From Limnohabitans sp. (GTDB lineage: Bacteria > Pseudomonadota > Gammaproteobacteria > Burkholderiales > Burkholderiaceae_C), in contig VERE01000010.1 of NCBI GenBank assembly GCA_018882835.1, positions 1 to 64,000 on the forward strand: a DNA stretch of 64,000 nucleotides, written 5' to 3'. The notes under the pieces are model-generated. The model ran no database searches. It was not told where the DNA came from and saw only the letters and a list, made by a program, of their open reading frames with translations. Positions within the stretch are counted from its first letter, which is position 1; each line of letters opens with the position of its first letter. Shown here in pieces: positions 6,041 to 23,311 of this stretch. The translations under genes and the position numbers were made by a program.

Positions 6041-6049
6041 GACAGCTCC

Positions 6050-7210: not shown

Positions 7211-7235
7211 GGTGTGTTGTCAATGTGTATCAAAT

Positions 7236-8120
7236 TCAGGCCAGGGTGGCCGTGGCCTGCATGGTGAGCCAGCCTTCATGGTCTTGCGCCCACAAGCGAA
7301 TCGATTTGCCGTCGGCGCTGGGTTGCCCATTGACGCGGAACGGGTTCAGGTCGAATGTGGGGCGCACGGCCTTGAACTCAAAATGCTGCACAAAGGCATC
7401 GGGCGCGTGGCGACGCAGCAAGTCCAGCAGCAGCATGGCAATCATGGGGCCGTGAACAATCAGGCCGGGATAGCCTTCTACCTCGGTCACATAGCGACGG
7501 TCATAATGGATGCGATGACCGTTGAAGGTCAGCGCCGAGTAGCGAAACAGCAGCACATCATCGGGCACGATCTCGCGTTGCCAGGCAGCCCCTTGCTCTG
7601 CGGCCACAGGTTGTGGCGCGGGGTCATCGGGCTGGGCCGCGGCGCGGTAAACAATGTCATGCTCCTCGGTCAAAGACAAGCCCCGGGCATTGCCGATTTC
7701 ATGCATCACCTGCACAAACAGCAGATCACCTGTGCGCCCGGTCTTGTGTTTGACCGACTGGATGCGAGACACGCGTTGCGCACTGTCGCCCACCACCAAG
7801 GGATTGTCCGCACGCCATTGCAAGCGCCCGCCGGCCCACATGCGGCGCGGCAAAGGAACAGGTGGCAAAAACCCGCCGCGCCTGGCATGGCCGTCGGGCC
7901 CAATTTCGCTTTGCCGATGGTGCGGCAAAAAATACAGCCAATGCCACAAGGGTGGCAAGGGCGTGCCAGACTGTGGGCTGGGGTCTTCGCGGTCGAAAGT
8001 GGCCGACAGCGCACGCACGGGCGCGGGCGTGACCCAGTCGGCGAGGGTTTCCGTGCGTCCCACCCAGGCTTGCAACTGGGGCAACAAGGTGGGGTCAAGG
8101 TGTCTTGTAGGCGTTTCCAT
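7236..8120 (-). CDS. MaoC-like double hotdog hydratase (mesaconyl-C4-CoA/3-methylfumaryl-CoA hydratase type)
   Basis: A 294-residue protein with an N-terminal FAS1-like dehydratase domain (about 10-135, including PLPPLWHWLYFLPHH and GGFLPPVPLPRRMWAGGRL) and a C-terminal hotdog domain. The C-terminal half holds ALTFNGHRIHYDRRY (N200, H202, H205), the position of the hydratase-2 catalytic motif. Relatives hydrate unsaturated dicarboxylyl-CoA esters such as mesaconyl-C4-CoA. As first gene of the operon, followed by acyl-CoA dehydrogenase and CoA-transferase genes, it would hydrate the enoyl-CoA made by its neighbour. The specific substrate is inferred, not shown. The divergent LysR gene starts 103 bases upstream. 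Confidence 0.85.
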   Translation of the reverse strand: METPTRHLDPTLLPQLQAWVGRTETLADWVTPAPVRALSATFDREDPSPQSGTPLPPLWHWLYFLPHHRQSEIGPDGHARRGGFLPPVPLPRRMWAGGRLQWRADNPLVVGDSAQRVSRIQSVKHKTGRTGDLLFVQVMHEIGNARGLSLTEEHDIVYRAAAQPDDPAPQPVAAEQGAAWQREIVPDDVLLFRYSALTFNGHRIHYDRRYVTEVEGYPGLIVHGPMIAMLLLDLLRRHAPDAFVQHFEFKAVRPTFDLNPFRVNGQPSADGKSIRLWAQDHEGWLTMQATATLA

Positions 8121-9129: not shown

Positions 9130-10113
9130 TTAATCGAACTTGATGCCTTTGGTGACCGTGCCCCACAAGGCCAGCTCGCGCGTGGCACGTTCCGTCACCC
9201 ATGAAGGCGGCCCCACCCAAAGGTCGTAGCCCAACTCCACCAGACGCGCCTTGACATCATCACGCGCCAGTGCCTGACGGGTGGCCTCGTTGATGCGCTT
9301 GATGAGCTCGGGCTCCATTTTGGGCGGACCATACAGCGCGTACCAGCCACCGACGTCATAGTCCTCGATGCCGGCTTCCTTCATGGACATGACTTGCGGC
9401 AACCCGGCATTACGCTCTTTGGAGGTCACGGCAATCGGTCGGACCCGACCGCTGGCAATGTGACCGCGCGCGCCGCCCACGATATCAAACATCATCTGGA
9501 TTTGACCGCCGATGACATCGGTCATGGCGGGGGCATTGCCTTTGTAGGGCACATGCGTGAGCTGCGTGCCGGTGCGCAGTGCGAACAACTCGCCGCTGAG
9601 GTGATTGGAAGCCCCCATACCGGCAGAGCCATAGGCCACCTTGCCAGGATTCGCCTTGGCATAAGCCACCAATTCCGGGACCGTTTTGAAGGGTTGGTCA
9701 TTGTTGACGACCAAAACATTGGCATAGCTCAGTATGGGTGCAATCGGCACAAGGTCTTTGAGCGGGTCAAACGGCATCGACTTGATGACGTGCGGGGTGA
9801 TGGTCATGGTCGGACTGGCAGCAAAGAAAAACATCAGCGCATTCGGCGCTGATTTGGACACTGCATCCCCACCCAGGGCACCGGCGGCACCGGGACGGTT
9901 TTCTACCACGACGTTTTGACCCAGTTCGCGCGCCAGGGCAGGCGCAATCAGCCGTGCCGCGGCATCCACCGGGCCGCCTGCCGAGTACCCCACCACCAAG
10001 CGCACGGTTTGAGGCGATTGCGCTGAGGCGCCAATCAACCAAAAGCCCAGGCTCATTGCCGATAGCCATTGCAACCATCCTCGACGCGCCAAGCGCTTTC
10101 CCTGTATGTTCAT
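9130..10113 (-). CDS. Bug-family tripartite tricarboxylate transporter substrate-binding protein
   Basis: A 327-residue periplasmic binding protein. A signal peptide with a basic N-region (MNIQGKRLARRGW) and hydrophobic core ends around GASAQ, residues 29-32. The Bug fingerprint VVGYSAGGPVDAAARLIAP follows, and HVPYKGNAPAMTDVIGGQ lies mid-protein. It is the last gene in the minus-strand run from the catabolic block, 24 bases after the nitronate-monooxygenase-like gene. No transporter membrane subunits are nearby, so it must share a permease encoded elsewhere or act as a sensor ligand-binding protein. The ligand is unknown. Confidence 0.92.
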   Translation of the reverse strand: MNIQGKRLARRGWLQWLSAMSLGFWLIGASAQSPQTVRLVVGYSAGGPVDAAARLIAPALARELGQNVVVENRPGAAGALGGDAVSKSAPNALMFFFAASPTMTITPHVIKSMPFDPLKDLVPIAPILSYANVLVVNNDQPFKTVPELVAYAKANPGKVAYGSAGMGASNHLSGELFALRTGTQLTHVPYKGNAPAMTDVIGGQIQMMFDIVGGARGHIASGRVRPIAVTSKERNAGLPQVMSMKEAGIEDYDVGGWYALYGPPKMEPELIKRINEATRQALARDDVKARLVELGYDLWVGPPSWVTERATRELALWGTVTKGIKFD

Positions 10114-10137: not shown

Positions 10138-11112
10138 TTACTCTGCGGTCCACCGTTGTGCTTGTGCCAGATGCGCACGGCAGTCTGCCACCATGCGCTC
10201 GATCAGTTCGGCACAGCTTGGAATATCGTGGATCAAGCCCACCACTTGGCCCGCAGCAATCACGCCACCGTCCACATCGCCCGACAGCATGGCGTCGCGC
10301 CCGCGCGTCCCCACCACCCAAGGGCGGACATCTTCGAACTCACAGCCCTCGGGATGGCGCTCACGGGCGACCACAGCCTCTGACACGGCATTGCGCAGCA
10401 CCCGCGTGGTATTGCGAAAGCTGCGCAACATCAGGCGCGTGTCACGTTCGGTGGCGGACACCAGGGCTTGTTTGATGTTGTCATGCACAGGCGCTTCCTG
10501 GGTCGCAAAAAAACGTGTTCCCATGTTCACCCCTTCCGCGCCCAAGGCCATGGCCGCGGCCATGCCACGCCCATCTGCGATGCCGCCCGAGGCGATGACA
10601 GGGATTTTCAAGGCCTGGGTGGCCAAGGGAATCAACACCAGGCCAGGCACATCGTCTTCACCGGGGTGCCCCGCGCACTCGAAGCCATCGATGCTGACGA
10701 TGTCCACCCCGTCACGCTCGGCAGAAAGCGCATGCCGCACGGTCGTGCACTTGTGCACAATGACCAGACCATGGGCTTTCAGCTGGGGAATGAAGGCCTT
10801 GGGGCTGTTGCCAGCGGTTTCAATGATCTTGACGCCTTGCTCGATGATCACCTGCACATACTCGGCATAGGGTGGCGGCTTCAGCGTGGGCAACAAGGTC
10901 AGGTTGACGCCAAAAGGCTTGTCGGTCAGCTCACGGGTGCGCTGAATTTCACGCTCTAAATCTTTGGGCGTGGGCTGCGTCAAGGCTGTGATGACGCCCA
11001 AGCCGCCCGCATTGGAAACCGCAGCCACCAGCTCGGCCTTGCCCACCCACTGCATGCCCCCCTGGATGATGGGATAGCGGATGCCCAGCAGCTCGGTGAC
11101 ACGGTTCTTCAT
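10138..11112 (-). CDS. NAD(P)H-dependent flavin oxidoreductase / nitronate monooxygenase family
   Basis: A 324-residue FMN TIM-barrel enzyme. The N-terminus YPIIQGGMQWVG, the VSNAGGLGVITALT segment, GFECAGHPGEDD and the FMN-phosphate region IASGGIADGRGMAAAMALG are typical of the 2-nitropropane dioxygenase/nitronate monooxygenase family. The family also contains flavin-dependent enoyl reductases and trans-2-enoyl-CoA-acting members, so the name does not fix the reaction. The ATG at 11112 forms an ATGA overlap with the stop of the upstream Bug gene and begins at the family N-terminus MKNRVTELLG. In this block it may act on an unsaturated or nitro-containing intermediate. Confidence 0.88.
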   Translation of the reverse strand: MKNRVTELLGIRYPIIQGGMQWVGKAELVAAVSNAGGLGVITALTQPTPKDLEREIQRTRELTDKPFGVNLTLLPTLKPPPYAEYVQVIIEQGVKIIETAGNSPKAFIPQLKAHGLVIVHKCTTVRHALSAERDGVDIVSIDGFECAGHPGEDDVPGLVLIPLATQALKIPVIASGGIADGRGMAAAMALGAEGVNMGTRFFATQEAPVHDNIKQALVSATERDTRLMLRSFRNTTRVLRNAVSEAVVARERHPEGCEFEDVRPWVVGTRGRDAMLSGDVDGGVIAAGQVVGLIHDIPSCAELIERMVADCRAHLAQAQRWTAE

Positions 11113-12083
11113 GGGTTCAGCTTGATGTTGGCATCGCGAATGATCTTGGCGTAAATGGCTGCATCGTTGCGAAGGATTTGCGCAAACTCTTCCGGCTTGC
11201 CACCCCCCACCCACAAGCCCAGGCCTTCGACTTTGGCCACGATATCGGGCATGCGCAAAATTTTCATGGCTTCATCCGAGAACTTTTGCACGATGTGGGC
11301 CGGCGTTGCGGCGGGCAGCATCAGGCCAAACCAGCCGTAAGGTTCGAAGGAGTGGTAGCCCAACTCTTTGAAGCTGGGCACATCGGGCAACAAAGGCAAG
11401 CGCTGCGTGCCAGTGACCGCCAAAGGGCGAAACGACTTGAAGTGCGCGCGCGCAGATGCGCTGTCCACAAAGGCAGAGGTCAGTTGCCCGCCCAGCAAGT
11501 TGTTCATCAGAGGCGCAGAGCCCTGGAAAGGCACCATGACCTGATCCAGGCCGGCTTGCAGGTTCAACAAAGAGCCTTGTATGTGGGACGAGGTTCCCGC
11601 GCCATAGGTGCCATAGTTGAAGGTGGCGGGCTGTGCCTTGACCGCGGCCACATAGTCTTTCAAGGTCTGGTAGGGTGAATTCAGAGGCACCACAAACATG
11701 CTCGGGCTTTTCGCAATCTGCGTGATTGGCGCGAAGTCCTTCAGCGGGTCGTAGGGCAAGTTCATCAGGGGGGGTTGCTGGATGATGGCGGTGATCGCCA
11801 CCAACACGGTGTAGCCGTCTGGGGCGGCACGTGCCACCAGGTTGTTGCCGATGGTACCGCCGGCACCCGGCTTGTTCTCCACCACCACCGGCACGTTCCA
11901 GGCCTCGGAGAGCTTTTGTCCCATCATGCGCGCCAGAATGTCAGTGGCGCCGCCCGCGGGGTACGGCACGATCAGCTTAATTTGCTGGGTGGGAAAGCTT
12001 GGCGTTTGGGCGTGCGCGCAGGTCAAACCCAAAACGGACAAGGCCCATGCGCCCAACAGTCGTCGTGACAAAGTGAATTTCAT
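11109..12083 (-). CDS. Bug-family tripartite tricarboxylate transporter substrate-binding protein
   Basis: A 324-residue periplasmic binding protein. The signal peptide MKFTLSRRLLGAWALSVLGL ends near THAHAQ-like residues (CAHAQ), followed by IVPYPAGGATDILARMMG and later VMVPFQGSAPLMNNLLGGQ, both Bug-family marks. The ATG at 12083 is preferred over 12113 because AGGAG lies 8 bases upstream and the signal peptide starts there. It sits between an acyl-CoA dehydrogenase gene and a flavin oxidoreductase gene, and is joined to the latter by an ATGA overlap. This embeds the receptor in the catabolic operon, so it is a good candidate for binding that pathway's substrate. Confidence 0.92.
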   Translation of the reverse strand: MKFTLSRRLLGAWALSVLGLTCAHAQTPSFPTQQIKLIVPYPAGGATDILARMMGQKLSEAWNVPVVVENKPGAGGTIGNNLVARAAPDGYTVLVAITAIIQQPPLMNLPYDPLKDFAPITQIAKSPSMFVVPLNSPYQTLKDYVAAVKAQPATFNYGTYGAGTSSHIQGSLLNLQAGLDQVMVPFQGSAPLMNNLLGGQLTSAFVDSASARAHFKSFRPLAVTGTQRLPLLPDVPSFKELGYHSFEPYGWFGLMLPAATPAHIVQKFSDEAMKILRMPDIVAKVEGLGLWVGGGKPEEFAQILRNDAAIYAKIIRDANIKLNP

Positions 12084-12112
12084 GTTGTTTCTCCTCTGGA
12101 TTTTGTTAGGCA

Positions 12113-13270
12113 TCAGGCGATGCGGCCTTCTTTCACCATGTTGCGGCCAATGACGATTTGCTGAATCTGGCTGGTGCCCTCATACAGTCGGAACAGACGC
12201 ACGTCACGGTAGAAACGCTCAATGCCATATTCGCTCAGGTAGCCAGCGCCGCCAAAAATTTGCACCGCACGGTCTGCCACACGGCCGCACATTTCAGAGG
12301 CAAAGAGCTTGCAGCACGAGGCCTCGGTGGACACATTGCGGCCTTCGTCACGGCGGCGTGCCGCATCGATCACCATGGTCCGCGCCGCATAAAGCTCGGC
12401 CTGGCTGTCCGCCAGCATGGCCTGTACCAATTGGAACTCTGCGATGGGCTGGCCGAACTGCTTGCGTTCGGTGGCGTAGCGCAAGGCATCGCGCAGCATG
12501 CGCTCTGCTGCGCCAACACAAATGGCGGCAATGTGAATGCGCCCCTTTTCAAGGACCTTCATCGCGGTCTTGAAGCCTTGCCCTTCTTTGCCGCCGATCA
12601 GCTGGGTGGCAGGCACACGGCAGTTTTCAAAAATCACATCGGCGGTATGGGCACCGCGCTGACCCATCTTTTTATCGATCTTGCCAATGGTGATGCCGGG
12701 GGTGTTGGCTTCCACGATGAAGGCCGACACGCCGCCCGCGCCCTTGTTGTTGGGATCGGTGCGCGCCATCAGGGTGAAGATGTCCGCATGCGGCGAGTTG
12801 GTGATGTAGCGCTTGGTGCCATTGACCACGTAATGATCGCCATCGCGAATGGCGGTGGTTTTGAGCGATGCCGCATCGGAGCCCGCCTCGGGCTCGGTCA
12901 GCGCGAAGGAGGCCACGCACTCGCCACTGGCCAGGCGCGGCAGGTACTTGTCTTTTTGTTCCTGCGTGCCATCGAACAATATGCCCAGCGAGCCAATGCC
13001 CACGGTGGTTCCAAACAGGGATCGAAAACACGGTGAGGTTTGCCCCATGGCCAGCATGACCATGACCTCTTCCTCCATGGTGACCCCCAGGCCGCCATAG
13101 GCTTCCGGGAGGGTCAAGCCAAAAAGGCCCATGGCCTTCATGTCGGCCACGATGTCGGCGGGGATCACGTCGGTTTCAGCCACTTCGTTCTCGGCGGGCA
13201 CCAGGCGTTCTTGCACAAAGCGCTCCACCGAGTCGAGCAAAACCTTCAGGGTTTCAGCATCACGAATCAT
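12113..13270 (-). CDS. Acyl-CoA dehydrogenase (short/medium-chain type)
   Basis: A 385-residue FAD enzyme that oxidises acyl-CoA to trans-2-enoyl-CoA and passes electrons to ETF. The FASFALTEPEAGSDAAS-type motif is present around 120-135 (SFALTEPEAGSDAASLKTTA), GTKRYITNSPHADIF is at about 151-165, and the catalytic loop RLYEGTSQIQQIVIGR has E364 in the canonical position. Helix G has glycine (LEKGRIHIAA), as in short- and medium-chain enzymes. It is the first chemical step of this block together with the ligase, and follows the thiolase-like gene by 9 bases on the minus strand. Chain-length preference is not decidable. Confidence 0.94.
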   Translation of the reverse strand: MIRDAETLKVLLDSVERFVQERLVPAENEVAETDVIPADIVADMKAMGLFGLTLPEAYGGLGVTMEEEVMVMLAMGQTSPCFRSLFGTTVGIGSLGILFDGTQEQKDKYLPRLASGECVASFALTEPEAGSDAASLKTTAIRDGDHYVVNGTKRYITNSPHADIFTLMARTDPNNKGAGGVSAFIVEANTPGITIGKIDKKMGQRGAHTADVIFENCRVPATQLIGGKEGQGFKTAMKVLEKGRIHIAAICVGAAERMLRDALRYATERKQFGQPIAEFQLVQAMLADSQAELYAARTMVIDAARRRDEGRNVSTEASCCKLFASEMCGRVADRAVQIFGGAGYLSEYGIERFYRDVRLFRLYEGTSQIQQIVIGRNMVKEGRIA

Positions 13271-13279
13271 GAGCGAACC

Positions 13280-14458
13280 TCACAGCGTCTCGGCGGTGCC
13301 GAGAATGGCGGTGGACTGGCTGGAGAGCGTACCCCCATTGCCATGCACCAAGGCCGTTTGCGCGCCAGCCACCAGGCGGGCGCCGCCTTCGCCACGCAGC
13401 TGACGAACAGCTTCAATCAGACAGAAGATGCCGTACATGCCCGGATGGACACAGGACAAACCTCCGCCATTGGTGTTGACGGCCAAGCGGCCGCCAGGCG
13501 CAATGCCACCGTTTTCCACAAAAGCCCCGCCCTCCCCCTTCTTGCAGAAGCCCAAGTCTTCGAGAAACAGCAGGGTGTTGATGGTGAAGGCGTCGTACAA
13601 AGCCAGCACATTCATGTCTTTGGCCGACAGGCCTGCCATGGCATAAGCCTCTTGGCCAGACTGAGTGGCGGCAGTGACGGTCAAGTCGGGCATGCTGGCA
13701 ATTTGGCGATGCCAGGTCGCCGTGCCATTGCCAAGCACATAGACCGGCTTGTTCGGCAGGTCCTTGGCGCGATCGGCGCGTACCAACACATAGGCGCCGC
13801 CACCGTCGGTCACCAAGCAACAGTCGCGCACCGACAGGGGGTCGCAAACCATGCGGGCGGACAAGACATCGTCAATGCTCAGCGGGTCGCGCATGAAGGC
13901 GTCGGGGTTCAGCTGCGCCCAGGCACGGGCCGCCACCGCAATTTCGGCCAATTGCTTTCGCGTGGTGCCGTATTGGTGCATGTGGCGTGCAGCGGCCAGA
14001 GCATAGGCACTGGCAGGCATCACTGGGTCGAAAGGATGCTCGTAAGGCATGGGATCAAGGATGCGGCGGCTGGCGTTCATTTCCTTGCGGCCCAGGGTGG
14101 CCGTGCGTTGCGTGCTGCCATAGCACACCAACACCGCATTGCATTGACCGGATTGCAAGGCCAGCATGGCCGGCATCAGATGGGCAACAAAACTGGACCC
14201 ACCGATCATGGTGCCATCCAGGAAACGGGGGTTGATGCCCAAATACTCGGGCACGGCCATGCTCCACATGGTGGAGGACACACTGGCGGTGCAAATGCCA
14301 TCAATGTCCGACATTTTCAAGCCTGCATCGGCTACGGCCTGGCGCGCTGACCGCGCCAGAAGTTCCATTTCGGTGAAGCCATGGGCTTCGCCGCAGCCAA
14401 AGGTGCCCACACCGGCAATGACAGCGCTGCCGCGCAATGAAGACAAACGGGCGCTCAT
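13280..14458 (-). CDS. Thiolase-like protein lacking catalytic cysteines (putative acyl-CoA retro-aldolase)
   Basis: A 392-residue thiolase-superfamily protein of the SCP2/lipid-transfer type. The nucleophilic cysteine position holds methionine (M84 in DGTMIGGSSF, where the thiolase at 22029 has NNNCSTGSS). The second cysteine is lost too (GNGGTLS, L378), whereas His338 is kept in CVHPGMYG and tyrosines occupy two active-site positions (Y288 in LYDAFT, Y342). The same pattern, with a DUF35 partner, is known from the steroid side-chain aldolase Ltp2. Its start overlaps the DUF35 gene by ATGA, indicating a complex. I infer cleavage of a beta-hydroxyacyl-CoA to a ketone or aldehyde plus a short acyl-CoA; ordinary thiolysis looks unlikely. 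Confidence 0.85.
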   Translation of the reverse strand: MSARLSSLRGSAVIAGVGTFGCGEAHGFTEMELLARSARQAVADAGLKMSDIDGICTASVSSTMWSMAVPEYLGINPRFLDGTMIGGSSFVAHLMPAMLALQSGQCNAVLVCYGSTQRTATLGRKEMNASRRILDPMPYEHPFDPVMPASAYALAAARHMHQYGTTRKQLAEIAVAARAWAQLNPDAFMRDPLSIDDVLSARMVCDPLSVRDCCLVTDGGGAYVLVRADRAKDLPNKPVYVLGNGTATWHRQIASMPDLTVTAATQSGQEAYAMAGLSAKDMNVLALYDAFTINTLLFLEDLGFCKKGEGGAFVENGGIAPGGRLAVNTNGGGLSCVHPGMYGIFCLIEAVRQLRGEGGARLVAGAQTALVHGNGGTLSSQSTAILGTAETL

Positions 14459-14856
14459 GCTTGCCCCTCCTTCAAAGGATCAAACACCACCAGGCCTTTG
14501 CCGTTGGTGACTTGCACACGCGCCTTCACCCGTTGGCCAATCTTGACTTGGTCAGGTGAAAGCTGCTCCACGCGCGACATCAGGCGTACGCCTTCATCGA
14601 GATCGATCAGGGAAACGTTGTAATCCCCTCCGGCATCGGCCTTGCGGCGCACCGTGGTCACCGAATACACCGTACCCGTGCCCTTGGGCTCTTCGAAACC
14701 GACATGATCGCTGCCGCAATGGGGGCAAACTTCCCGCGGAAAGTAAATGGCGCCATGGCAGCTGTGGCAGCGCTGAATCAGAAAACGTCCCTGGTCCAGG
14801 GCCGCCGTGTGCTGTGCTTGCACTCCCAAGGCGGAGTTTGAGGTTGCAACGGTCAT
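14455..14856 (-). CDS. DUF35 OB-fold, zinc-ribbon acyl-CoA-binding protein
   Basis: A 133-residue protein. A rubredoxin-like zinc ribbon has C30 and C33 (CHSC) and C44 and C47 (CPHC), followed by an OB-fold half (about 55-130: GTVYSVTTVRR, VRLMSRVE, IGQRVKARVQV). Such proteins bind acyl-CoA and partner with thiolase-like enzymes as hydratase or aldolase subunits. The gene overlaps the Cys-less thiolase gene by four bases (ATGA), the strongest sign of a functional pair. It begins 11 bases after the SDR gene stop. Without a partner it would have no predicted catalysis of its own. Confidence 0.88.
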   Translation of the reverse strand: MTVATSNSALGVQAQHTAALDQGRFLIQRCHSCHGAIYFPREVCPHCGSDHVGFEEPKGTGTVYSVTTVRRKADAGGDYNVSLIDLDEGVRLMSRVEQLSPDQVKIGQRVKARVQVTNGKGLVVFDPLKEGQA

Positions 14857-14867: not shown

Positions 14868-15797
14868 TTAAACAGGATCCCAGCTGAACACATCGCCAGA
14901 GCGATCCAGCGGGAAATAACTGGCCTGCAAGGCAGGCAAGGCATGGCTGGCCACGGATTGCGGGTCCCAGCCTTCGCTGCGTTGCACCGAGCGCACAGGG
15001 CGCGGCTGGCTGATCAAGAAAATTTCGTTGTTGCGCACCGCAAAGATCTGCCCATTGGCATCGCGCGAGGCCTCACTGGCCAGGCACACTGCCAGTGGTG
15101 CGATTTTGGCGGGGGTCATTTGTTTGATGCGGTCAACCCGGGCCTGCTGCTCAGGGGTGTCGGTGGGGATGGAGCCAATCATGCGACTCCAGGCAAAAGG
15201 CGCAATGCAATTGGAGCGCACATTGAATTTCAGCATGTCCAGCGCAATCGATTTGGACAGCGCGGCAATGCCCAGCTTGGCCGCCGCATAGTTGGCTTGG
15301 CCGAAGTTGCCAATCAGGCCCGAAGTCGAGGTCATGTGAATGTAGTTACCAGACGCCTGCTCTTTGAAATGAGGGGCTGCCGCCCGGCTCACGTGGTAAG
15401 CGCCGTACAAGTGCACCTTGATCACAGCGTCCCATTCGTCCAGGCTCATCTTGTGGAAAAAGCGATCACGCAGAATGCCTGCGTTGTTGACCACCACATC
15501 GATGCGGCCAAAATGATCCAGCGCCGTTTGCACAATGCGGTTGGCACTGGCCGCCTCGCTCACGCTGTCGGTGTTGGCCACAGCCTCGCCCCCCAGGGCC
15601 TTGATTTCGTTGACCACCTTTTGCGCGGGTCCGGCATCGGCGCCCTCGCCAGTCACGGATGCGCCAATGTCATTGACCACCACTCGGGCGCCTTCACGCG
15701 CCATGGCCAAGGCAATGTCACGACCAATGCCGCCACCCGCGCCCGTCACCACCACGACTTTGCCCTCGACCATACGGGCTTGTTTTGCTTCACTCAT
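14868..15797 (-). CDS. SDR oxidoreductase, MFE-2-like (3R)-hydroxyacyl-CoA dehydrogenase type
   Basis: A 309-residue short-chain dehydrogenase. The cofactor glycines lie in TGAGGGIGRDIA (about 19-30), NNAG is at 105-108, and the catalytic serine/threonine near 157 with Y170 and K174 (NYAAAK) completes the triad. The long N-terminal region with VVVNDIGASVTGEG and the overall length recall the dehydrogenase part of peroxisomal multifunctional enzyme 2. That enzyme oxidises (3R)-hydroxyacyl-CoA, the product of MaoC-type hydratases, and such a pair is encoded at 21130-22015. NAD use is suggested by the aspartate after beta-2 (ND at 42-43). The substrate is inferred from context. Confidence 0.88.
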   Translation of the reverse strand: MSEAKQARMVEGKVVVVTGAGGGIGRDIALAMAREGARVVVNDIGASVTGEGADAGPAQKVVNEIKALGGEAVANTDSVSEAASANRIVQTALDHFGRIDVVVNNAGILRDRFFHKMSLDEWDAVIKVHLYGAYHVSRAAAPHFKEQASGNYIHMTSTSGLIGNFGQANYAAAKLGIAALSKSIALDMLKFNVRSNCIAPFAWSRMIGSIPTDTPEQQARVDRIKQMTPAKIAPLAVCLASEASRDANGQIFAVRNNEIFLISQPRPVRSVQRSEGWDPQSVASHALPALQASYFPLDRSGDVFSWDPV

Positions 15798-15822: not shown

Positions 15823-16620
15823 TCAAACTTTTTGAGGCCACTGAAAGGCCGCCGGTTCTTTGTTTAAAAAGCGCTGCACCGCCTGGCGGTGCGCGTCGGT
15901 GCTTCCCGCCACGCCTTGCGCGGTGGCTTCCATCTCCAGAAGCCCCGACAAATCGGCGCCGCCCACAGTGGCCAAGGTGCGCTTGATGAGGCTGACAGCC
16001 ACCGGTGAGGCGTGGGCCATGCTGGCACCCAAGGCCTGGGCCCGTGCCATCAACTGCTCAGGGGCGTGCAATTCCATGACGATGCCCAATTGCAAAGCCT
16101 CGTCGGCTTTGACTTCACGCGCCGACAGCATCAACTCTTTCGCACGTTGCACGCCCACGATGCGCGGCAAGGTGTGAAAGGCCGCGCAGTCGGGAACCAA
16201 GCCAATGCGCAGGAAAGACATGCAAAAACGCGCCCGTGGCGTTGCCAAAACGAAATCCGCCATCAGGGCAAAGCTGAAGCCGGCACCGTAGGCGACGCCG
16301 TCCACAGCCGCAATCAAGGGGCGGTCCAGCGTCATCAAGGGCATCAGGTTGTCATGCAGACGACTCATGCTCTGACGCCACGTGGCCGGATCGCGCGGGC
16401 TGGTCGACATGTTGCGGATGTCGCCACCTGCGCAAAAATGTCCCTCGGCACCGGTCAGGATGACGGCACGCACTTGATCGTCCTTGCGGATGCGCGTCAT
16501 GGCATCTTCAATTTCCAGTCGCATGTCGGAACTCAAGGCGTTGCGGGCGCTGGGATTATTGAGCGTCAGGGTGGCGACATGGTCTTGCACCTCAAAGCCC
16601 AAATGTTTGTAAGCAGTCAT
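15823..16620 (-). CDS. Enoyl-CoA hydratase/isomerase family protein (isomerase-like active site)
   Basis: A 265-residue crotonase-fold protein. Oxyanion-hole segments HFCAGGDI (61-68) and GVAYGAGFSF (108-117) are intact. The two glutamates of true enoyl-CoA hydratases are missing: the GCELAMM position reads GFSFALM (S116) and the PEILIG position reads SFLRIG (F136). An aspartate lies in GLVPDC (D144), where PaaG-type enoyl-CoA isomerases have their catalytic aspartate. I therefore favour a double-bond isomerase over a hydratase. The ATG at 16620 has AAAGGAGA upstream and gives the normal length; the frame upstream is not conserved. It lies between two SDR genes. Confidence 0.85.
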   Translation of the reverse strand: MTAYKHLGFEVQDHVATLTLNNPSARNALSSDMRLEIEDAMTRIRKDDQVRAVILTGAEGHFCAGGDIRNMSTSPRDPATWRQSMSRLHDNLMPLMTLDRPLIAAVDGVAYGAGFSFALMADFVLATPRARFCMSFLRIGLVPDCAAFHTLPRIVGVQRAKELMLSAREVKADEALQLGIVMELHAPEQLMARAQALGASMAHASPVAVSLIKRTLATVGGADLSGLLEMEATAQGVAGSTDAHRQAVQRFLNKEPAAFQWPQKV

Positions 16621-16630
16621 GTTGTCTCCT

Positions 16631-17422
16631 TTAGTTGTTGAGGGCGCCACCCAGGTTGCGTCCACCCGAGAGGGCACTGCCGCCGTCCACAGGAATGACG
16701 GCTCCGGTCACATATTGCGCACGCGTCGAGCTGAGGAACATCGCCATGTCGGCAATTTCTTCGGTGGTCCCCATGCGACCCAGGGGAATGCTGCTGGTCA
16801 TGCGGGCAATGTCTTCGGGGGTGGGCGCCAACCGGCGAATGCCCTCGGTGTCGGCAATCGGGCCTGGTGCAATGCCGTTGACGCGTACACCATCGGGCCC
16901 CCACTCCATGGCCAAGACACGCGTCAGCATGTCAATGCCGGCCTTGGCGGCGCACACATGCGATTGGAACATGGTGGGATTGACAGCCTGCGGCGCAGAA
17001 ATGTTGATGATGGAAGCGCCCGGCTTTCGCAAAAACTCGTGGGCGGCGCGCAACACATGGAAAGTCCCGTTCAAGTCGATGTCGACAACAGTGCGAAAGC
17101 CGTTGGCTGACATGCCAAGGGCCGGAGCCACAAAATTGCCTGCAGCGCCGGAGATCAGCACATCGATGTCGCCCCAGGCCATGTGGGTTTGCTGCAGGGC
17201 CTGGGCAATGGCTAGCGGATCGCGCACATCGGCACTGAAGCCCAGCACAGGACCGCCATAAGATTTCAGTTCTGCCACGGCGCCATCGACCCTCTCCTGC
17301 GAGCGGCTGGCGATGGCCACTTTCGCACCCGCTCGTGCAAAGGCACGGGCAATGCCCAAGTTGATGCCGCTGCTGCCGCCCGCCACAAAAACGGTCTGGC
17401 CTTTGAATTCGATGTCGCTCAT
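16631..17422 (-). CDS. SDR oxidoreductase, 2,4-dienoyl-CoA reductase-like
   Basis: A 263-residue Rossmann protein. The cofactor loop is AGGSSGINLGIA (about 14-25) and the segment GAAGNF (92-97) is typical of 2,4-dienoyl-CoA reductases. The normal YxxxK is absent: the residue four before K160 is V156 (HVCAAKAG), as in DECR-type enzymes where the catalytic tyrosine sits elsewhere. MEWGPDGVRVNGIAPGPI follows. Such enzymes reduce 2,4-dienoyl-CoA with NADPH, allowing beta-oxidation of unsaturated chains. The ATG at 17422 forms an ATGA overlap with the ligase gene and has the family N-terminus, so the long upstream frame is not coding. The reaction is inferred from the motif pattern. Confidence 0.85.
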   Translation of the reverse strand: MSDIEFKGQTVFVAGGSSGINLGIARAFARAGAKVAIASRSQERVDGAVAELKSYGGPVLGFSADVRDPLAIAQALQQTHMAWGDIDVLISGAAGNFVAPALGMSANGFRTVVDIDLNGTFHVLRAAHEFLRKPGASIINISAPQAVNPTMFQSHVCAAKAGIDMLTRVLAMEWGPDGVRVNGIAPGPIADTEGIRRLAPTPEDIARMTSSIPLGRMGTTEEIADMAMFLSSTRAQYVTGAVIPVDGGSALSGGRNLGGALNN

Positions 17423-19122
17423 GCTGTTGCTCCTGATGGTGTTGCGCTGGCGCGTTCTTGCGCTTGTAGTTCGCGCCACAAAATTTTGCCCGCTCCCGAT
17501 TTGGGCAAACTGTCCACAATTCGAATGGCGCGCGGTGCCTTGTACACCGCCATCTGTTCGCGCCCCCAATCGATCAGCGCTTGTTCGGTTAAGTGTCCCC
17601 GGTGCTCGGGCTTGAGCACCACCAGGCCCACCACACGTTCGCCACGCTGTGCATCGGGCACACCGACAATGCAAGCCTCGTGAATGGCGGGATGGCGGTA
17701 CATCACATTCTCGACTTCGGCTGGCCAGACTTTGTAGCCCGACACATTGATCATGCGTTTGAGGCGGTCTTTCATGAAGAAGTAGCCTTCTTCGTCTTGT
17801 GTGGCCAGGTCGCCAGTGCGAAAGAAGCGCTGTCCGTCCAAATCGATAAAGGCAGTTGCATTGGCATCATCGTTGCGCCAATAACCGCTCATGACCTGGG
17901 GGCCACGCGCCACCAACTCGCCCTGCTCACCGCGCGCGACCTCTTGCAAGGTCTCGGGGTCGATGATGCGCGCATCCACACCGGGCGTCACCACCCCCAG
18001 GCATTGGCGCTTGCCACGGTGCACCGGGTTGGCCAACAAAAACGAGGCGGTTTCTGACAAGCCATAGGCCTCGTTGTAGCTGAGGCCAAAGCGTTCAAAC
18101 AAAAGCTTGGCAATGGCTTCTGGCATGGCCGCGCCGCCCCCCGACAGCAAACTCAGGCTGGACAAATCACGCGTGGCGGCATCGGGGTGCGCAAAGAAAT
18201 CGATGACCATTGCCGGTGGCGCAGCCCAGGTGGTGACACGGTAGCGCTCCATCAGACGCGCAGCCACGGCCGCATTCCAGCGCGGCATCATCACCACCGT
18301 GGCCCCCAGCGTCAAGGGCAGGTTCATGGCGTTTTGCAGGCCCAGCATATGAAACAGCGGCGCTACACACAACACCGTGACGTCGGCATGCAAGCTGCGC
18401 CACTGCTGGGAGGTGACGTTGGCCGCCAGCAGGGAACGGTGCGAATGCATGCAGCCTTTGGGATGCCCTGTGGTGCCTGAGGTGTAGGGCAACACCGCCA
18501 GGTCTTCCGGTTGTCCCTGGTAAGGCAACGGTGGCTGTGCCAAAGCCAATACGTCCTCAAAGGCATGCAGGCACGCATGGCTCAAGGGCAACCGTGGTGC
18601 GGTGACCACCTCGGGCAAATCGGCGTCAGCGCCTTCGCCGGGCAGCGCATCGCTGTACGCATGCACCACCCCATGTTGCAACCCACCGCCGTGCGCTTGC
18701 AGACAGGGCACCACATTGGCCAGGAACTCTTGCGCCACAAAGGCAACGCTGGCACCACTGTCTTGCTGGTACCCCGCAATTTCGCCCGCAGTGCTCATGG
18801 GGTTGACAGGCACCACCGCCGCTTGCGCACGCAAAATGGCGTAATAGGCCACCACCCATTGCGGGCAGTTCTGGCTGATCAACAACACGCGGTCCCCAGG
18901 TTGAACCCCCAAGGTCTGCTGCAAGAACCCGGCCATGGCGGTGACCCGGCGTTGCAACGCGGCGTAGGTGAGCACGCCACCGCCGTAGATGACGGCAGGC
19001 TTGTCGGGGTAGCGCAAAGCGGCCGTGTCCACATAGTGCATGTAGGTGGCGTGGGGCACGCGCGCGTCGCGTGGCAAACCACGCGGCCAATGGACCGGTG
19101 CGGGAGGAAGCGTGGCCGTCAT
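17419..19122 (-). CDS. Acyl-CoA ligase (AMP-forming)
   Basis: A 567-residue ANL-superfamily ligase that activates a carboxylic acid with ATP and CoA. The P-loop TSGTTGHPKG is at 214-223, the GYGLSETASF-like A5 motif reads EAYGLSETASF, the adenylate-binding FFRTGDLATQDEEGYFFMKD is present, and the C-terminal catalytic lysine is K546 in LPKSGAGK. The N-terminus contains HYVDTAALRYPDKPAV, typical of medium- and long-chain enzymes. It lies between an acyl-CoA dehydrogenase gene and the dienoyl-CoA reductase-like gene, so it probably commits this block's substrate to CoA chemistry. Acid specificity cannot be read from sequence. It is 46% or less alike by eye to the second ligase at 61377, so they are not recent copies. 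Confidence 0.92.
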   Translation of the reverse strand: MTATLPPAPVHWPRGLPRDARVPHATYMHYVDTAALRYPDKPAVIYGGGVLTYAALQRRVTAMAGFLQQTLGVQPGDRVLLISQNCPQWVVAYYAILRAQAAVVPVNPMSTAGEIAGYQQDSGASVAFVAQEFLANVVPCLQAHGGGLQHGVVHAYSDALPGEGADADLPEVVTAPRLPLSHACLHAFEDVLALAQPPLPYQGQPEDLAVLPYTSGTTGHPKGCMHSHRSLLAANVTSQQWRSLHADVTVLCVAPLFHMLGLQNAMNLPLTLGATVVMMPRWNAAVAARLMERYRVTTWAAPPAMVIDFFAHPDAATRDLSSLSLLSGGGAAMPEAIAKLLFERFGLSYNEAYGLSETASFLLANPVHRGKRQCLGVVTPGVDARIIDPETLQEVARGEQGELVARGPQVMSGYWRNDDANATAFIDLDGQRFFRTGDLATQDEEGYFFMKDRLKRMINVSGYKVWPAEVENVMYRHPAIHEACIVGVPDAQRGERVVGLVVLKPEHRGHLTEQALIDWGREQMAVYKAPRAIRIVDSLPKSGAGKILWRELQAQERASATPSGATA

Positions 19123-19124: not shown

Positions 19125-20282
19125 TCAGTCCCGCTCAATCGCGCGGGCAATGATTTCCTTCATGACCTCGTTGGCGCCACCGTAAATGCGGCCTACGCGG
19201 GCATCGGCATACATGCGGGCAATGGGGTATTCGTTCATGTAGCCGTAACCACCAAAGAACTGCAGACATTCATCGACCAGCTTGCCGTAGGCGTCGGTGG
19301 TCCACCATTTGACCATCGCGGCGGTCGGCACATCGAGCTCTCCGCGTTGCAGGCGGGCCACGCAGTCGTCGACAAAGCTTCGCGCAATGGTGGCCTGGGT
19401 GGCGCATTCCGCCAATTTGAAGCGGGTGTTTTGCTGCGCCAACAAGGGCTTGCCAAACACTTCACGCTGGCGAACATAGTCTGTGGTTTCTTGCAAGGCG
19501 CGAAACATCAGGGCCACGGTGCCAATGCCGATCAGCAAGCGCTCTTGCGGCAACTGCTGCATCAACTGCGCAAAGCCCTGCCCCTCTTCGCCACCCAGGA
19601 GGTTCTCCACCGGCACACGCACGTCGTCAAAAAAGAGCTCGGCGGTGTCGATGGTCTTTTGCCCCATTTTGTCGAGCAAGCGGCCGCGGCGAAAGCCAGC
19701 CAGGCCATCGGTCTCCACAAATACCAGCGACACACCCTTGGCACCGGCATTGGCGTCGGTCTTCACGGCCACGCAAATCAGGTTGGCATGGTAGCCGTTG
19801 GTGATGAAAGTTTTGGAGCCCTGAATGCGGTAATGGTCGCCCTCACGGGTAGCGCGGGTGCGGATGCGCTGCAAGTCAGTGCCAGCGCTGGGCTCGGTCA
19901 TGGCGATGGCAGCCACACACTCGCCCGTGGCCATGCGTGGCAGCCAGCGCTGCTTTTGTGCCTCGGTGCCATAGGCCAACAGGTAGTGGGCCACGATGCC
20001 GCTGTGCACGCTGTTGCTGAAACCCGCCACCAAAGACTCGGCCTGGGCTTCGGCAATCACCGCCTCATGCAAAAAATTGCCGCCGCCGCCGCCATAAGCC
20101 TCGGGAATGCTGGCGCACAACAAGCCGGCCGCACCGGCTTTTTGCCAGATCTCGCGGTCGGCGTGGCGCTGCTCGCTCCAGCGCTTGTCATTGGGCACGC
20201 ACTCGCGCTCGAAGAAACGCTTGGCGGTGTCGCGCAGCATCTCCAGCTCGGGGGTCATCCAGGCGCGGGGGGCCTGCTTCAT
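19125..20282 (-). CDS. Acyl-CoA dehydrogenase, isovaleryl-type catalytic position
   Basis: A 385-residue FAD enzyme. AIAMTEPSAGTDLQRIRTRA, GSKTFITNGYHANLI and the C-terminal FGGYGYMNEYPIARMYADAR are family hallmarks. The loop position of the usual glutamate reads IYGGANEV (glycine), while helix G has E247 in LPQERLLIG, the isovaleryl-/long-chain-type arrangement. This points to branched, cyclic or otherwise bulky substrates. The ATG at 20282 forms an ATGA overlap with the SDR gene upstream. The longer open frame to 20786 runs antisense-like through that gene and is not coding. Together with the enzyme at 12113 it provides two chemically different dehydrogenases for one pathway. Confidence 0.93.
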   Translation of the reverse strand: MKQAPRAWMTPELEMLRDTAKRFFERECVPNDKRWSEQRHADREIWQKAGAAGLLCASIPEAYGGGGGNFLHEAVIAEAQAESLVAGFSNSVHSGIVAHYLLAYGTEAQKQRWLPRMATGECVAAIAMTEPSAGTDLQRIRTRATREGDHYRIQGSKTFITNGYHANLICVAVKTDANAGAKGVSLVFVETDGLAGFRRGRLLDKMGQKTIDTAELFFDDVRVPVENLLGGEEGQGFAQLMQQLPQERLLIGIGTVALMFRALQETTDYVRQREVFGKPLLAQQNTRFKLAECATQATIARSFVDDCVARLQRGELDVPTAAMVKWWTTDAYGKLVDECLQFFGGYGYMNEYPIARMYADARVGRIYGGANEVMKEIIARAIERD

Positions 20283-21106
20283 GGCCGACCTCCACCACAT
20301 ACCAAAACCTGACCGCTCACATAGTTGGACTCGGGAATGCAGAACATGTAAACCGCGCCCGCGGCCTCCTCTGGCGTGCCGCCACGCCCCAGGGGGATCA
20401 TGGCCTCGGCTGTTTTGAGAATTTGCGGATTCACGCCCACTTTGATTTCCTGACCGGCAATATCGATCTTGGCGTCGGCGTCGGCCGAAGCCTCCGTCAG
20501 ACGGGTTTTGATCAGCCCAAACGCCACGCTGTTGACGTTCACTTTGTAACGGCCCCACTCTTTGGCCATGGCTTTGGTCAGGCCGTTGATGCCGGCCTTG
20601 GCCGCTGCGTAGTTGGCCTGGCCGGCATTGCCATACACCCCCGAGGTGGAGGAGATGTTCACCACCTTGCGGTGAACCGACAGGCCAGCCTCGGCCTCGC
20701 GTTTGGCGGCCTCGCGGATGAAGCCGGACGCGGCCCGCATGATGCGAAATGGCGCCGTCAAATGGACCGCCAGCATGGCCTCCCATTGCTCGTCGGTCAT
20801 CTTCTGGACCACGTTGTCCCAGGTGTAGCCAGCATTGTTGACGATGATGTCCAGGCCGCCGAACTGGTCAATGGCGGTGGCCACAAATCGATCGGCAAAA
20901 CCGGCCTCGGTCACATTGCCCACACAGGCCACGGCCTTGCCACCGGCGGCCACGATGTCGTTGACGGTTTGCGCTGCAGGCGCAGGATCCAGGTCATTGA
21001 TGACCACACTGGCGCCTTCATGGGCCAGTTTCAGGGCAATCTCGCGGCCAATGCCACGCCCCGAGCCCGAGACCAGGGCCACTTTTCCTTGCAATTTGGG
21101 TTGCAT
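20279..21106 (-). CDS. SDR oxidoreductase, FabG-like 3-hydroxyacyl-CoA dehydrogenase
   Basis: A 275-residue short-chain dehydrogenase. SGSGRGIGREIA (about 13-24) binds the cofactor, D38 after beta-2 (VVINDLD) favours NAD(H), NNAG is at 90-93, and S152, Y166 and K170 form the catalytic set (ISSTSG, NYAAAKAG). It probably oxidises a 3-hydroxyacyl-CoA made by the adjacent MaoC-type hydratase pair. An AAAGGAAAG site supports the ATG at 21106; an ATG nine codons upstream (21133) would overlap the next gene as ATGA and is a real alternative. The chain-length and stereochemical preference is unknown. Confidence 0.9.
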   Translation of the reverse strand: MQPKLQGKVALVSGSGRGIGREIALKLAHEGASVVINDLDPAPAAQTVNDIVAAGGKAVACVGNVTEAGFADRFVATAIDQFGGLDIIVNNAGYTWDNVVQKMTDEQWEAMLAVHLTAPFRIMRAASGFIREAAKREAEAGLSVHRKVVNISSTSGVYGNAGQANYAAAKAGINGLTKAMAKEWGRYKVNVNSVAFGLIKTRLTEASADADAKIDIAGQEIKVGVNPQILKTAEAMIPLGRGGTPEEAAGAVYMFCIPESNYVSGQVLVCGGGRP

Positions 21107-21129
21107 GATCTTTCCTTTGCGTTTCAGAT

Positions 21130-21558
21130 TCAAGCCAGGGCGATCACGGCGTCGCCGGCCAGTTTCACCTGGCCCTGATCGTTGGTCGTGGTCAGCGTCA
21201 AGCGCACGCAGGCTTGGCCGTCGCGCTCAAATTTCTCTGTCACCTCGCCTGCACAGGTGATGCGCTCGCCGACCTGGGTAATGGCCGCAAAGCGCACGCT
21301 GTACTCGCGCAACTGCGATTGCGGCACCCACTGGGTCAGCAAGCGCCCCAGCCAGGCCATGGACAACATGCCATGGGCAAACACATCGGGGACCTTGGCC
21401 TCGTTGCGGGCAAAGTCAATGTCCACGTGAATCGGGTTGTGATCGCCAGAGGCGCCGCAGTACAAGGCCAGGGTATGGCGGGACACAGGGGGCAGCGCGA
21501 GCAGGGGCAGCTTGTCGCCCACTTGCACTTGCGCGGCAGTCAAAAGGGAAGCCGTCAT
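21130..21558 (-). CDS. MaoC-like hotdog hydratase, catalytic subunit type
   Basis: A 142-residue single hotdog domain. The hydratase-2 motif CGASGDHNPIHVDIDFA holds the catalytic dyad D39 and H44, equivalent to the Asp/His of PhaJ. It would add water to trans-2-enoyl-CoA to give the (3R)-hydroxyacyl-CoA. The gene ends at the ATGA overlap option of the SDR gene and starts 13 bases after the second hotdog gene. The adjacent degenerate hotdog protein suggests a heterodimer, the architecture used for bulky substrates such as steroid-chain enoyl-CoAs. It is one of the clearest functional assignments in this block. Confidence 0.88.
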   Translation of the reverse strand: MTASLLTAAQVQVGDKLPLLALPPVSRHTLALYCGASGDHNPIHVDIDFARNEAKVPDVFAHGMLSMAWLGRLLTQWVPQSQLREYSVRFAAITQVGERITCAGEVTEKFERDGQACVRLTLTTTNDQGQVKLAGDAVIALA

Positions 21559-21571: not shown

Positions 21572-22015
21572 TCAGGCGTTGCGCATGACTGTGACGGTGC
21601 GCAAATCGGCCACCCACTGTTGATGCTGATTGGTCACCCTGGTTTTGCGCAGCACGAATTCAAGGGCGCCATTTTTCTTGTCGTAAATGTCTTCAATGCG
21701 CTGCTCGAAAGTGAGCGTGTCGCCCGCATAGACAGGAGCGTTGTAGACAAAGCCTTGTTCGCCATGCAACAAGCGGCGGTAATCCAGCCCCAGCAAGTTG
21801 CGAATGGCCGCAGGGTCGGGCGCCTCCATTTCCAGGCAAAACAAAAACGTGGGCGGCACCAGCAAAGCGCGGTGTCCGGCAGCCTGTGCGGCTTTCTCAT
21901 CAAGGTAAATGGGGTTGGTTTCGCCAATGGCTTTGGCAAAGAAACGCAAGCGCCCTTTTTCAACCTCGACTTGAAAAGAAGGAAAGCTGTGGCCGATGTA
22001 GCGTCGGTCGATCAT
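21572..22015 (-). CDS. MaoC-like FAS1-type hotdog protein, non-catalytic partner
   Basis: A 147-residue hotdog protein of the MaoC_dehydrat_N type. The place of the catalytic motif reads AKAIGETNPIYLDE, with E32 for the aspartate and Y37 for the histidine, so it should not hydrate alone. The segment VPPTFLFCLEM and the LLHGEQGFVYNAPVYAGDTL region are typical of the substrate-binding halves of split hydratases. It starts 13 bases after the thiolase gene stop and is followed by the catalytic hotdog gene. I infer that it shapes the acyl pocket of a heterodimer. An independent thioesterase role is less likely. Confidence 0.85.
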   Translation of the reverse strand: MIDRRYIGHSFPSFQVEVEKGRLRFFAKAIGETNPIYLDEKAAQAAGHRALLVPPTFLFCLEMEAPDPAAIRNLLGLDYRRLLHGEQGFVYNAPVYAGDTLTFEQRIEDIYDKKNGALEFVLRKTRVTNQHQQWVADLRTVTVMRNA

Positions 22016-23222: not shown

Positions 23223-23311
23223 ACCGTCTCCTCGGTTGGTGATGAGGCAGTGTGAAACGGCCAGCGTCATTCACCAATGACGGATTGGCTCAAAATGAAT
23301 GGCAAAAAAGC

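Follow-up and report, generated by a model that had tools for sequence, protein, structure and literature searches.

What does a thiolase-fold protein catalyse once its nucleophilic cysteine is gone, and why does a DUF35 gene overlap its own? We addressed this question for a gene pair in a 64,000-nucleotide stretch of Limnohabitans sp. (GenBank assembly GCA_018882835.1, contig VERE01000010.1, positions 1 to 64,000; hereafter the window), which belongs to a 3.28 Mb draft genome in 107 contigs. Both open reading frames (ORFs) were present where a preliminary description of this DNA had placed them:

13280..14458, minus strand: thiolase-fold protein of PRK06158, with Gly87, Tyr288-Asp-Ala290-Phe and His338; proposed retro-aldolase catalytic subunit (NF004811, alignment)
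14455..14856, minus strand: DUF35 protein with a zinc ribbon and an OB fold; proposed partner subunit (PF12172, PF01796)

With moderate confidence, we propose that this pair is a DUF35-dependent acyl-coenzyme A (acyl-CoA) retro-aldolase of the widespread PRK06158 subfamily, with a Tyr288/His338 active site that we judge from sequence comparison to be unlike those of the characterised aldolases. The observation made in the preliminary description was partly confirmed as a whole and its interpretation, a cysteine-free retro-aldolase like the steroid enzyme Ltp2, was partly supported: the Gly/Tyr signature, the side of the tree and the DUF35 partner agree with it, and the second catalytic residue does not.

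The thiolase-fold protein has 392 amino acids (aa) and the DUF35 protein 133. The DUF35 stop and the thiolase-like start share the letters ATGA, which suggests translational coupling of the two genes, and a GGAG-type stretch precedes each of them. As the preliminary description had it, the overlapping gene supplies a zinc ribbon and an OB fold, matching the Pfam profiles PF12172 (42 bits) and PF01796 (62 bits), with a ribbon of the CxxC...CxxC type. The thiolase-fold protein matched NCBIfam NF004811 (PRK06158, 'acetyl-CoA acetyltransferase') at 674 bits against a cut-off of 421; in Pfam it passed Thiolase_C_1 (227 bits), with Thiolase_N and Thiolase_C below cut-off. Its best three solved matches were 4u4e ('Thiolase'), 9myr, taken to be the bile acid aldolase CtSal from its residue numbering and partner chain, and 6ok1, the steroid aldolase TcLtp2. 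The DUF35 protein had five solved matches, including the partner chains of 6ok1, 9myr, 6esq and 9skh. The aldolase complexes 6ok1 and 9myr were among the best solved matches of both subunits, and the non-aldolase complexes 6esq and 9skh likewise appeared in the match lists of both.

Two enzymes of the Gly/Tyr kind have been shown to be aldolases, TcLtp2 and CtSal (PMC12329534, here and below for the parts of the article available to us). In TcLtp2, Tyr294 is the base, His296 lies in the oxyanion hole and Tyr344 is the acid; in CtSal, Tyr302 and Cys304 are catalytic and a Gly occupies the position of the nucleophilic Cys of thiolases of the sterol carrier protein 2 (SCP2) type (PMC12329534). 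We compared active sites in an alignment of 194 rows: the window protein, eight references (seven Protein Data Bank matches and the sibling thiolase at 22029) and 185 ORFs from the loci. Dropping ORFs below 330 aa and merging identical rows had beforehand left 187 of 192 rows, two of which came from the window itself. We call close the 127 rows, window protein included, that reach at least 55% identity to it. In all 20 Cys-bearing thiolase rows, Cys87 is accompanied by His288 (in HDCF or HDAF) and His338. The remaining 174 rows, the Gly/Tyr group, have Tyr288 throughout, and column 87 is Gly in 173 and Pro in one. Gly87, Tyr288, Asp289, Ala290 and Phe291 occur in 127 of 127 close rows and His338 in 125, with Gln in the other two; His338 is also found in 158 of the 174 Gly/Tyr-group rows, a sample weighted to close orthologues. 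Compared with a thiolase, the window protein lacks the nucleophilic Cys (Gly87), has Tyr288 in place of the HD(C/A)F His and keeps the GHP His as His338. It has the features of an Ltp2 or Sal in the Gly at the nucleophile column, the Tyr base in a YDxF/Y motif and the adjacent DUF35 gene, but not in the second catalytic residue, Tyr344 of Ltp2 or Cys304 of Sal, for which it has His338 and Ala290 instead. Because of these two residues, the window protein appears to be a variant, neither an Ltp2 nor a Sal. An ungapped count from the conserved NT(H/N)GG equates His338 with Ltp2 Tyr344, Sal Gln352 and the thiolase GHP His.

The preliminary description had correctly recognised that a nucleophilic Cys is lost from a thiolase-fold protein, that His338 is kept and that the sibling at 22029 has its cysteines; our alignment shows this sibling to be a Cys thiolase by its nucleophilic residue and its HDCF and GHP motifs. 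Its other residue assignments need correction. It took Met84 for the nucleophile site, three residues off the Gly87 with which the Cys column aligns; column 84 is variable (Met 98, Asn 15, Arg 6, Cys 3 and others 5 among the close rows). Leu378, named as the second Cys, falls in a column where 17 of the 20 Cys thiolases have Gly; it is Ala290 that aligns with the Cys of HDCF in SCP2 thiolases. As for the two active-site tyrosines, Tyr288 matches the catalytic base of Ltp2 and Sal, but Tyr342 is not the equivalent of Ltp2 Tyr344: its column is Tyr in 125 and Phe in two of the close rows, and Arg, Ala or Pro in 35 of the 47 other Gly/Tyr-group rows. Met84 as nucleophile, Leu378 as second Cys and Tyr342 as a second tyrosine of the Ltp2 type were all ruled out by the alignment.

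The preliminary description also raised a true thiolase with a shifted cysteine, and no conserved Cys resembles such a displaced nucleophile. Five of the ten Cys in the window protein (106, 213, 214, 305 and 336) are conserved in at least 90% of the 127 close rows, and none of those conserved to this degree is a good replacement. Eighteen of the 20 Cys thiolases also have Cys213; Cys214 and Cys305 recur in the TcLtp2, SCP2 and BbsB references and Cys106 in 4u4e and CtSal. Cys336 is the sole conserved Cys not common to references, and the five compared carry Tyr, Phe, Glu or Lys there. A cysteine shifted to column 84 was likewise rejected, with Cys in three of 127 rows there and the other conserved Cys mostly common to aldolase or Cys-thiolase references.

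Trees, built by quick searches with support from the Shimodaira-Hasegawa-like approximate likelihood ratio test (SH-aLRT) alone, agree with this division. The first held 82 rows, made up of the window protein, all 67 rows below 55% identity and 14 from the remaining 126. The 20 Cys and the 62 Gly/Tyr rows fell into separate groups, with SH-aLRT 99 on all columns and again 99 with the motif regions taken out; support was 93 after we added the ibuprofen-pathway protein IpfD, a second Ltp2-like protein and three Simplicispira plasmid rows, a fourth ORF of that plasmid (303 aa) being excluded for its short length. The window protein grouped with its close orthologues at support 98 to 100, with 4u4e as a near outgroup. 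On this evidence it stands with Ltp2, Sal and, less firmly, IpfD, away from the Cys thiolases, as the preliminary description anticipated; the order within the Gly/Tyr group is unsure, Ltp2, IpfD and some other rows being long branches.

These comparisons lead us to propose a mechanism in which the thiolase-fold subunit and its DUF35 zinc-ribbon/OB-fold partner would work as one enzyme, cleaving a 3-hydroxyacyl-CoA by retro-aldol chemistry to acetyl-CoA (or propionyl-CoA) and a carbonyl compound. The absence of the Cys, at Gly87, would provide a backbone amide and room for the beta-hydroxyl. Tyr288 of the YDAF motif may remove the proton from that hydroxyl, whereupon the C(alpha)-C(beta) bond would break, and the CoA enolate would then be protonated, most likely by His338, which aligns with the Ltp2 general acid Tyr344. 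The DUF35 protein could shape the acyl-binding cleft and stabilise the enzyme. The substrate may be a tertiary 3-hydroxyacyl-CoA and the product a ketone, as the preliminary description supposed, and the evidence from gene neighbourhoods on this is mixed.

Each characterised relative shares part of this pattern; retro-aldolases of the Ltp2/Sal type are marked, besides their activity, by an alpha-beta-beta-alpha heterotetramer. The TcLtp2-ChsH2(DUF35) steroid aldolase (6ok1) has the same thiolase fold, DUF35 partner, Gly and YDxF Tyr (Tyr294, equivalent to Tyr288), but is about 33% identical, with YDHF and the acid Tyr344 against Ala290 and His338 in the window protein, which as far as tested does not lie in a steroid locus. 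The CtSal-CtShy(DUF35) bile acid aldolase (presumably 9myr), about 35% identical, shares the Gly, Tyr302 (Tyr288 here) and a DUF35 partner and differs in the acid Cys304 and in Gln352, which are Ala290 and His338 here. In CtShy the DUF35 is fused to a hydratase and has a Cys3His1 zinc site, unlike the separate DUF35 protein of the window (PMC12329534). For the ibuprofen pathway, C-C cleavage of an acyl-CoA by a retro-aldolase has been described (PMC9195938, in the part available). We identified IpfD on plasmid pIBU218 by its place beside dioxygenase, DUF35 and ligase genes; the IpfD-IpfE pair has a separate DUF35 gene, Gly and YDAF as in the window, whereas IpfD is about 39% identical, has Tyr at position 338 instead of His, and belongs to a different gene order and pathway. 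The same plasmid also encodes (L224, 5552-7116) an Ltp2-like protein, 58% identical to TcLtp2, with a DUF35 gene of its own and distinct from IpfD/IpfE. The closest solved relative, 4u4e, presumably from Sphaerobacter, is about 50% identical and has the Gly/YDSF/His pattern and the HPGMYG loop in common with the window protein, with Ser where the latter has Ala290; a literature search found no paper pairing 4U4E with thiolase. Benzoylsuccinyl-CoA thiolase BbsAB (7pxp), about 29% identical, also joins a DUF35 protein to a thiolase subunit and has the Ala in HDAF and the GHP His, but it is a true thiolase with a nucleophilic Cys and His288, both of which the window protein lacks. Lastly, the window protein is a member of NF004811/PRK06158, whose product name implies a thiolase chemistry that the residues do not support.

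We next compared the neighbourhoods of orthologous loci. From at least 584 confirmed relatives, the best 80 provided the named loci, so that close orthologues are over-represented. Neighbours were labelled by tblastn with a chosen reference set, on the same strand and within 8 kb, leaving many genes unlabelled; 104 of the 127 loci were well flanked, with at least 5 kb on both sides. A DUF35 gene is the labelled gene just upstream on the same strand in 123 of 124 loci with upstream sequence, the exception being L062. By a stricter test using hidden Markov models and distance it is upstream in 115 of 127, with ten misses, nine of which have DUF35 directly upstream by labels. The CxxC...CxxC zinc-ribbon pattern is present in 108 of 125 DUF35 genes. 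A gene of the type of ACAD1, the window's next gene downstream, directly follows the thiolase-like gene in 32 of 127 loci. Across the 104 well-flanked loci, CoA activation is represented in 88, a hydratase in 79 and an acyl-CoA dehydrogenase in 61. An aldehyde dehydrogenase, searched with one reference sequence, occurs on the same strand in one of the 104, and on the opposite strand near the pair at L049, L111 and L115 to L117; the scarcity of same-strand genes weakly favours a ketone product over an aldehyde.

Several results weigh against a retro-aldolase. The chief one comes from the same neighbourhoods, where a 3-hydroxyacyl-CoA dehydrogenase occurs in 60 of 104 loci: a short-chain dehydrogenase/reductase (SDR) of multifunctional enzyme type 2 (MFE-2) in 44, counted at 55% or more identity to SDR1 of the window within 8 kb, and a FadJ-like protein in 17. 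A Cys thiolase is found in 16 of the 104 and neither enzyme in 37, and 51 have the dehydrogenase without a Cys thiolase. Such loci would look like those expected for a step on a 3-oxoacyl-CoA, and the pair could therefore act where a thiolase normally acts. In the active site, His338 is the residue of thiolases and not the Tyr of Ltp2 or the Gln of Sal, and Ala290 stands where Ltp2 has His296 and Sal has Cys304, although IpfD shares the Ala. On the tree the Gly/Tyr signature is a single change with one origin, and its many occurrences amount to one piece of evidence. The sibling thiolase and its near kin make up 15 of the 20 Cys rows. A 303-aa ORF at L225, a short thiolase-like row outside the 194, fits neither pattern. 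We also know of no measured activity for this clade.

The chief rival explanation, which we hold to be unlikely, is a cysteine-free retro-Claisen reaction, in which the neighbouring hydratase and dehydrogenase would supply a 3-oxoacyl-CoA and the pair would cleave it without a covalent acyl-enzyme. The nucleophile would be water, activated by Tyr288/His338, or CoA; any acid set free would be converted back to a CoA ester by a CoA-transferase or ligase encoded nearby. The dehydrogenase counts are what it would predict, and among the 127 loci the labelled gene immediately downstream is ScoA in 17, ACS in 8, AcdAB in 6 and CaiB in 2. The thiolase His survives as His338, and DUF35-bound BbsB, Cys-bearing in our alignment, is a precedent for a retro-Claisen reaction on this scaffold. 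CoA activation and dehydrogenases are, however, commonplace in any acyl-CoA catabolic cluster, and we know of no Cys-free thiolase-fold retro-Claisen hydrolase. Gly87 and Tyr288, moreover, are common to the two enzymes shown to be aldolases (PMC12329534) and occur in none of the 20 Cys thiolases.

Carboxylase genes, labelled in nine of the 104 loci, bear on two other explanations. A thiolase-fold decarboxylase or condensing enzyme, serving synthesis or the handling of malonyl-type CoA esters, seems very unlikely to us. TbSLP, a related Cys-poor protein, is a weak malonyl-CoA decarboxylase, but CtSal does not decarboxylate malonyl-CoA (both PMC12329534), no carboxylase was found in 95 of the 104 loci, and the neighbourhoods, with the activation, hydratase and dehydrogenase counts given above, look catabolic. 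Slightly less probable again is a substitute for the lyase of 3-hydroxy-3-methylglutaryl-CoA (HMG-CoA), in which the pair, at loci of the order Bug-carboxylase-FadJ-DUF35-thiolase-ScoAB, would cleave HMG-CoA to acetoacetate for the CoA transferase. Carboxylase, ScoAB and the pair are joined in the nine well-flanked loci, and a lyase of the HMG-CoA type was found in none of the 104 on the same strand within 8 kb. The carboxyltransferase at L106, the only one searched, nevertheless scored 263 bits for the methylmalonyl-CoA decarboxylase type and 243 for propionyl-CoA carboxylase, against 188 for methylcrotonyl- and 127 for geranyl-CoA carboxylase; all nine loci have a 3-hydroxyacyl-CoA dehydrogenase, useless on HMG-CoA, and no carboxylase is labelled near the window pair. 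Separately, we observed a recurrent cassette of TctC, acyl-CoA carboxylase, DUF35, thiolase-like protein and ScoAB at L106 (3220-12551), L096, L111, L114, L048 and L049. Its carboxylase comprises a carboxyltransferase, a biotin carboxylase and a small biotin carrier, and a FadJ-like protein was present in both members checked (L106 and L049).

Selection on the gene addresses whether the protein works at all. The ratio of nonsynonymous to synonymous polymorphism (pN/pS) was 0.23-0.31 against seven orthologues, indicating purifying selection, and the thiolase-like gene is therefore maintained as a protein. Of the 392 columns, 82 show conservation of 98% or more across the 127 close rows. A catalytically dead thiolase homologue, kept as a scaffold or lipid carrier for DUF35 and other enzymes, would account for the loss of the known nucleophile and for the 'lipid-transfer protein' annotation on some relatives. 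We rate it the least probable explanation of all, given the pN/pS values and the finding that active-site columns are among the most conserved (Gly87 and Tyr288 to Phe291 without exception, His338 with two).

Returning to a retro-aldolase, we examined the operon it would serve. The pair lies in a tight minus-strand gene run from 23270 down to 9130, with these other members:

22029..23270, minus strand: SCP2-type thiolase, PRK08256, with nucleophilic Cys, HDCF and GHP; the comparison sibling (best solved match 6hsj)
21572..22015, minus strand: protein like FAS1_DH and the MFE-2 hydratase-2 N-terminal domain, probably the other half of the split hydratase (domain match)
21130..21558, minus strand: MaoC-domain protein, probably half of a split MFE-2-type hydratase 2 (MaoC domain match)
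20279..21133, minus strand: FabG-like SDR, start approximate (profile matches)
19125..20330, minus strand: acyl-CoA dehydrogenase ACAD2, start approximate, open frame to 20786 (profile matches)
17419..19122, minus strand: AMP-forming acyl-CoA ligase, PRK08314 subfamily (profile matches)
16631..17422, minus strand: SDR of the PRK07576 subfamily, 2,4-dienoyl-CoA reductase-like, start approximate, open frame to 17674 (profile matches)
15823..16677, minus strand: enoyl-CoA hydratase/isomerase family protein, probable start near 16620 (profile matches)
14868..15797, minus strand: SDR1, of the (3R)-hydroxyacyl-CoA dehydrogenase type of MFE-2 (17-beta-hydroxysteroid dehydrogenase 4) (best Protein Data Bank match 2et6, then 1zbq and 1gz6)
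12113..13270, minus strand: acyl-CoA dehydrogenase ACAD1, next downstream of the thiolase-like gene (profile matches)
11109..12113, minus strand: TctC (Bug) periplasmic receptor (domain match)
10138..11214, minus strand: PF03060 (nitronate monooxygenase-family) flavoprotein (Pfam), FabK-like by NCBIfam below cut-off
9130..10113, minus strand: TctC (Bug) periplasmic receptor, last gene of the run (domain match)

From its predicted products, the operon looks like a split MFE-2 and SCP2 set with a second, cysteine-free cleaving enzyme; this kind of set is used for branched acyl chains in peroxisomes. The surrounding ligase, dehydrogenases, split MFE-2-type hydratase, SDRs and SCP2 thiolase would degrade a branched acid, and the retro-aldolase would act at its branch. 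If sterol side-chain degradation is a guide, ordinary rounds would fall to the Cys thiolase and the one that encounters the branch to the DUF35 enzyme. Much of the gene set is also found around the orthologues at L032-L035, L038, L040, L042, L078, L087, L090 and others. A neighbouring minus-strand set at 2392-8120 encodes TctC, MmgE/PrpD, a family III CoA-transferase, an acyl-CoA dehydrogenase and a FAS1_DH protein, and such a TctC-MmgE/PrpD set, together with a CitE-like lyase, adjoins the pair in several orthologous loci (e.g., L077, L081 and L086), as if it handled a product like a methylsuccinate- or itaconate-like diacid.

We also looked in the genome for an Ltp2 or Sal orthologue, as would mark a locus for steroid side-chain degradation. 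A PF22691 search of the own genome gave six matches: the window protein, its sibling, L163, L165, L166 and a weak match, L167, that was not aligned. L165 and L166 are of the Cys type. L163 (G000:C19:4948-6075) is the second Gly/Tyr protein of the genome, 32% identical, with YDSF and His338; downstream of it lies a DUF35-like ORF, missed by the zf-ChsH2 search and perhaps lacking a normal zinc ribbon. No orthologue of Ltp2 or Sal was found among the aligned PF22691 matches of this draft genome, in which other steroid genes were not searched. A steroid side-chain degradation locus is not supported, as none of the aligned matches groups with Ltp2 or Sal, and the comparison indicates that the window protein is not an orthologue of the steroid enzymes.

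The thiolase-like gene is scattered among relatives. The closest named orthologues among the matches listed are from Comamonadaceae, e.g., Limnohabitans and Pseudorhodoferax. Of 200 genomes of the same family, 106 had some match at E 1e-3, and among the matches listed at least 31 besides the window's own were at 54% identity or more. Thirteen of 61 relatives had a match at E 1e-100 or better, ten of them among the 37 genomes of the window's genus, own genome included. By these counts, the gene is therefore accessory and patchy.

DUF35-partnered aldolases of this fold are already known; what seems new is the clade assignment, the corrected residue map and the His338 form of the active site. Our literature search, which mostly did not extend to subscription journals, gave no match for PRK06158, NF004811, 'acyl-CoA retro-aldolase' or 'thiolase-like aldolase'. 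No gene for the cleavage step was found in the naphthenic acid and cyclohexylacetate literature, including the available part of PMC4547698; a search on the Pseudomonas aeruginosa cluster matched one microarray paper, and the main text of an RB-TnSeq (random barcode transposon-site sequencing) paper on beta-proteobacteria, as far as available, does not contain the word DUF35 (PMC12543098).

A widespread subfamily is named acetyl-CoA acetyltransferase though it lacks the acyl-enzyme residue of thiolases, and a new name would put right the catabolic pathways predicted for Comamonadaceae, Alcaligenaceae, Cupriavidus, Pseudomonas and Rhodobacterales. The Gly87/Tyr288/residue-338 code offers a simple rule for separating such enzymes from thiolases. 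If the pair is an aldolase, bacteria would possess a general means of bypassing the branches at which beta-oxidation is blocked, which bears on the degradation of terpenoids, naphthenic acids and drugs. They would also offer a range of enzymes with which tertiary alcohols at CoA esters can be made or broken. We further suggest, as a possible but doubtful extension, that cysteine-free acyl-CoA C-C lyases constitute a large family that has gone unrecognised, in which the Tyr288/His338 clade is the common and probably ancestral form and the steroid aldolases are derived exceptions. Members of the clade would, in many clusters, stand in for the thiolase of a beta-oxidation set that is complete in other respects, and would cleave the 3-hydroxyacyl-CoA directly or else the 3-oxoacyl-CoA with no covalent intermediate. 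If so, orphan lyases of tertiary-alcohol acyl-CoAs, for example (1-hydroxycyclohexyl)acetyl-CoA lyase (EC 4.1.3.35), could have their genes in this family.

Relatives are also carried on plasmids, where tblastn gave 572 records at E 1e-5, distant relatives included, of which 56 were at 60-80% identity. On a Simplicispira plasmid (L225, 3327-10631), four thiolase-fold genes and two zinc-ribbon/OB-fold genes are adjacent, the thiolase-fold genes being of Cys and Cys-free types with one that fits neither pattern. On Hydrogenophaga plasmid pBPS33-1, a second thiolase-like/DUF35 pair adjoins the first (L155, 6826-8382); with YDCF and a Glu at the 338 position, it constitutes a further active-site type of the Gly/Tyr group.

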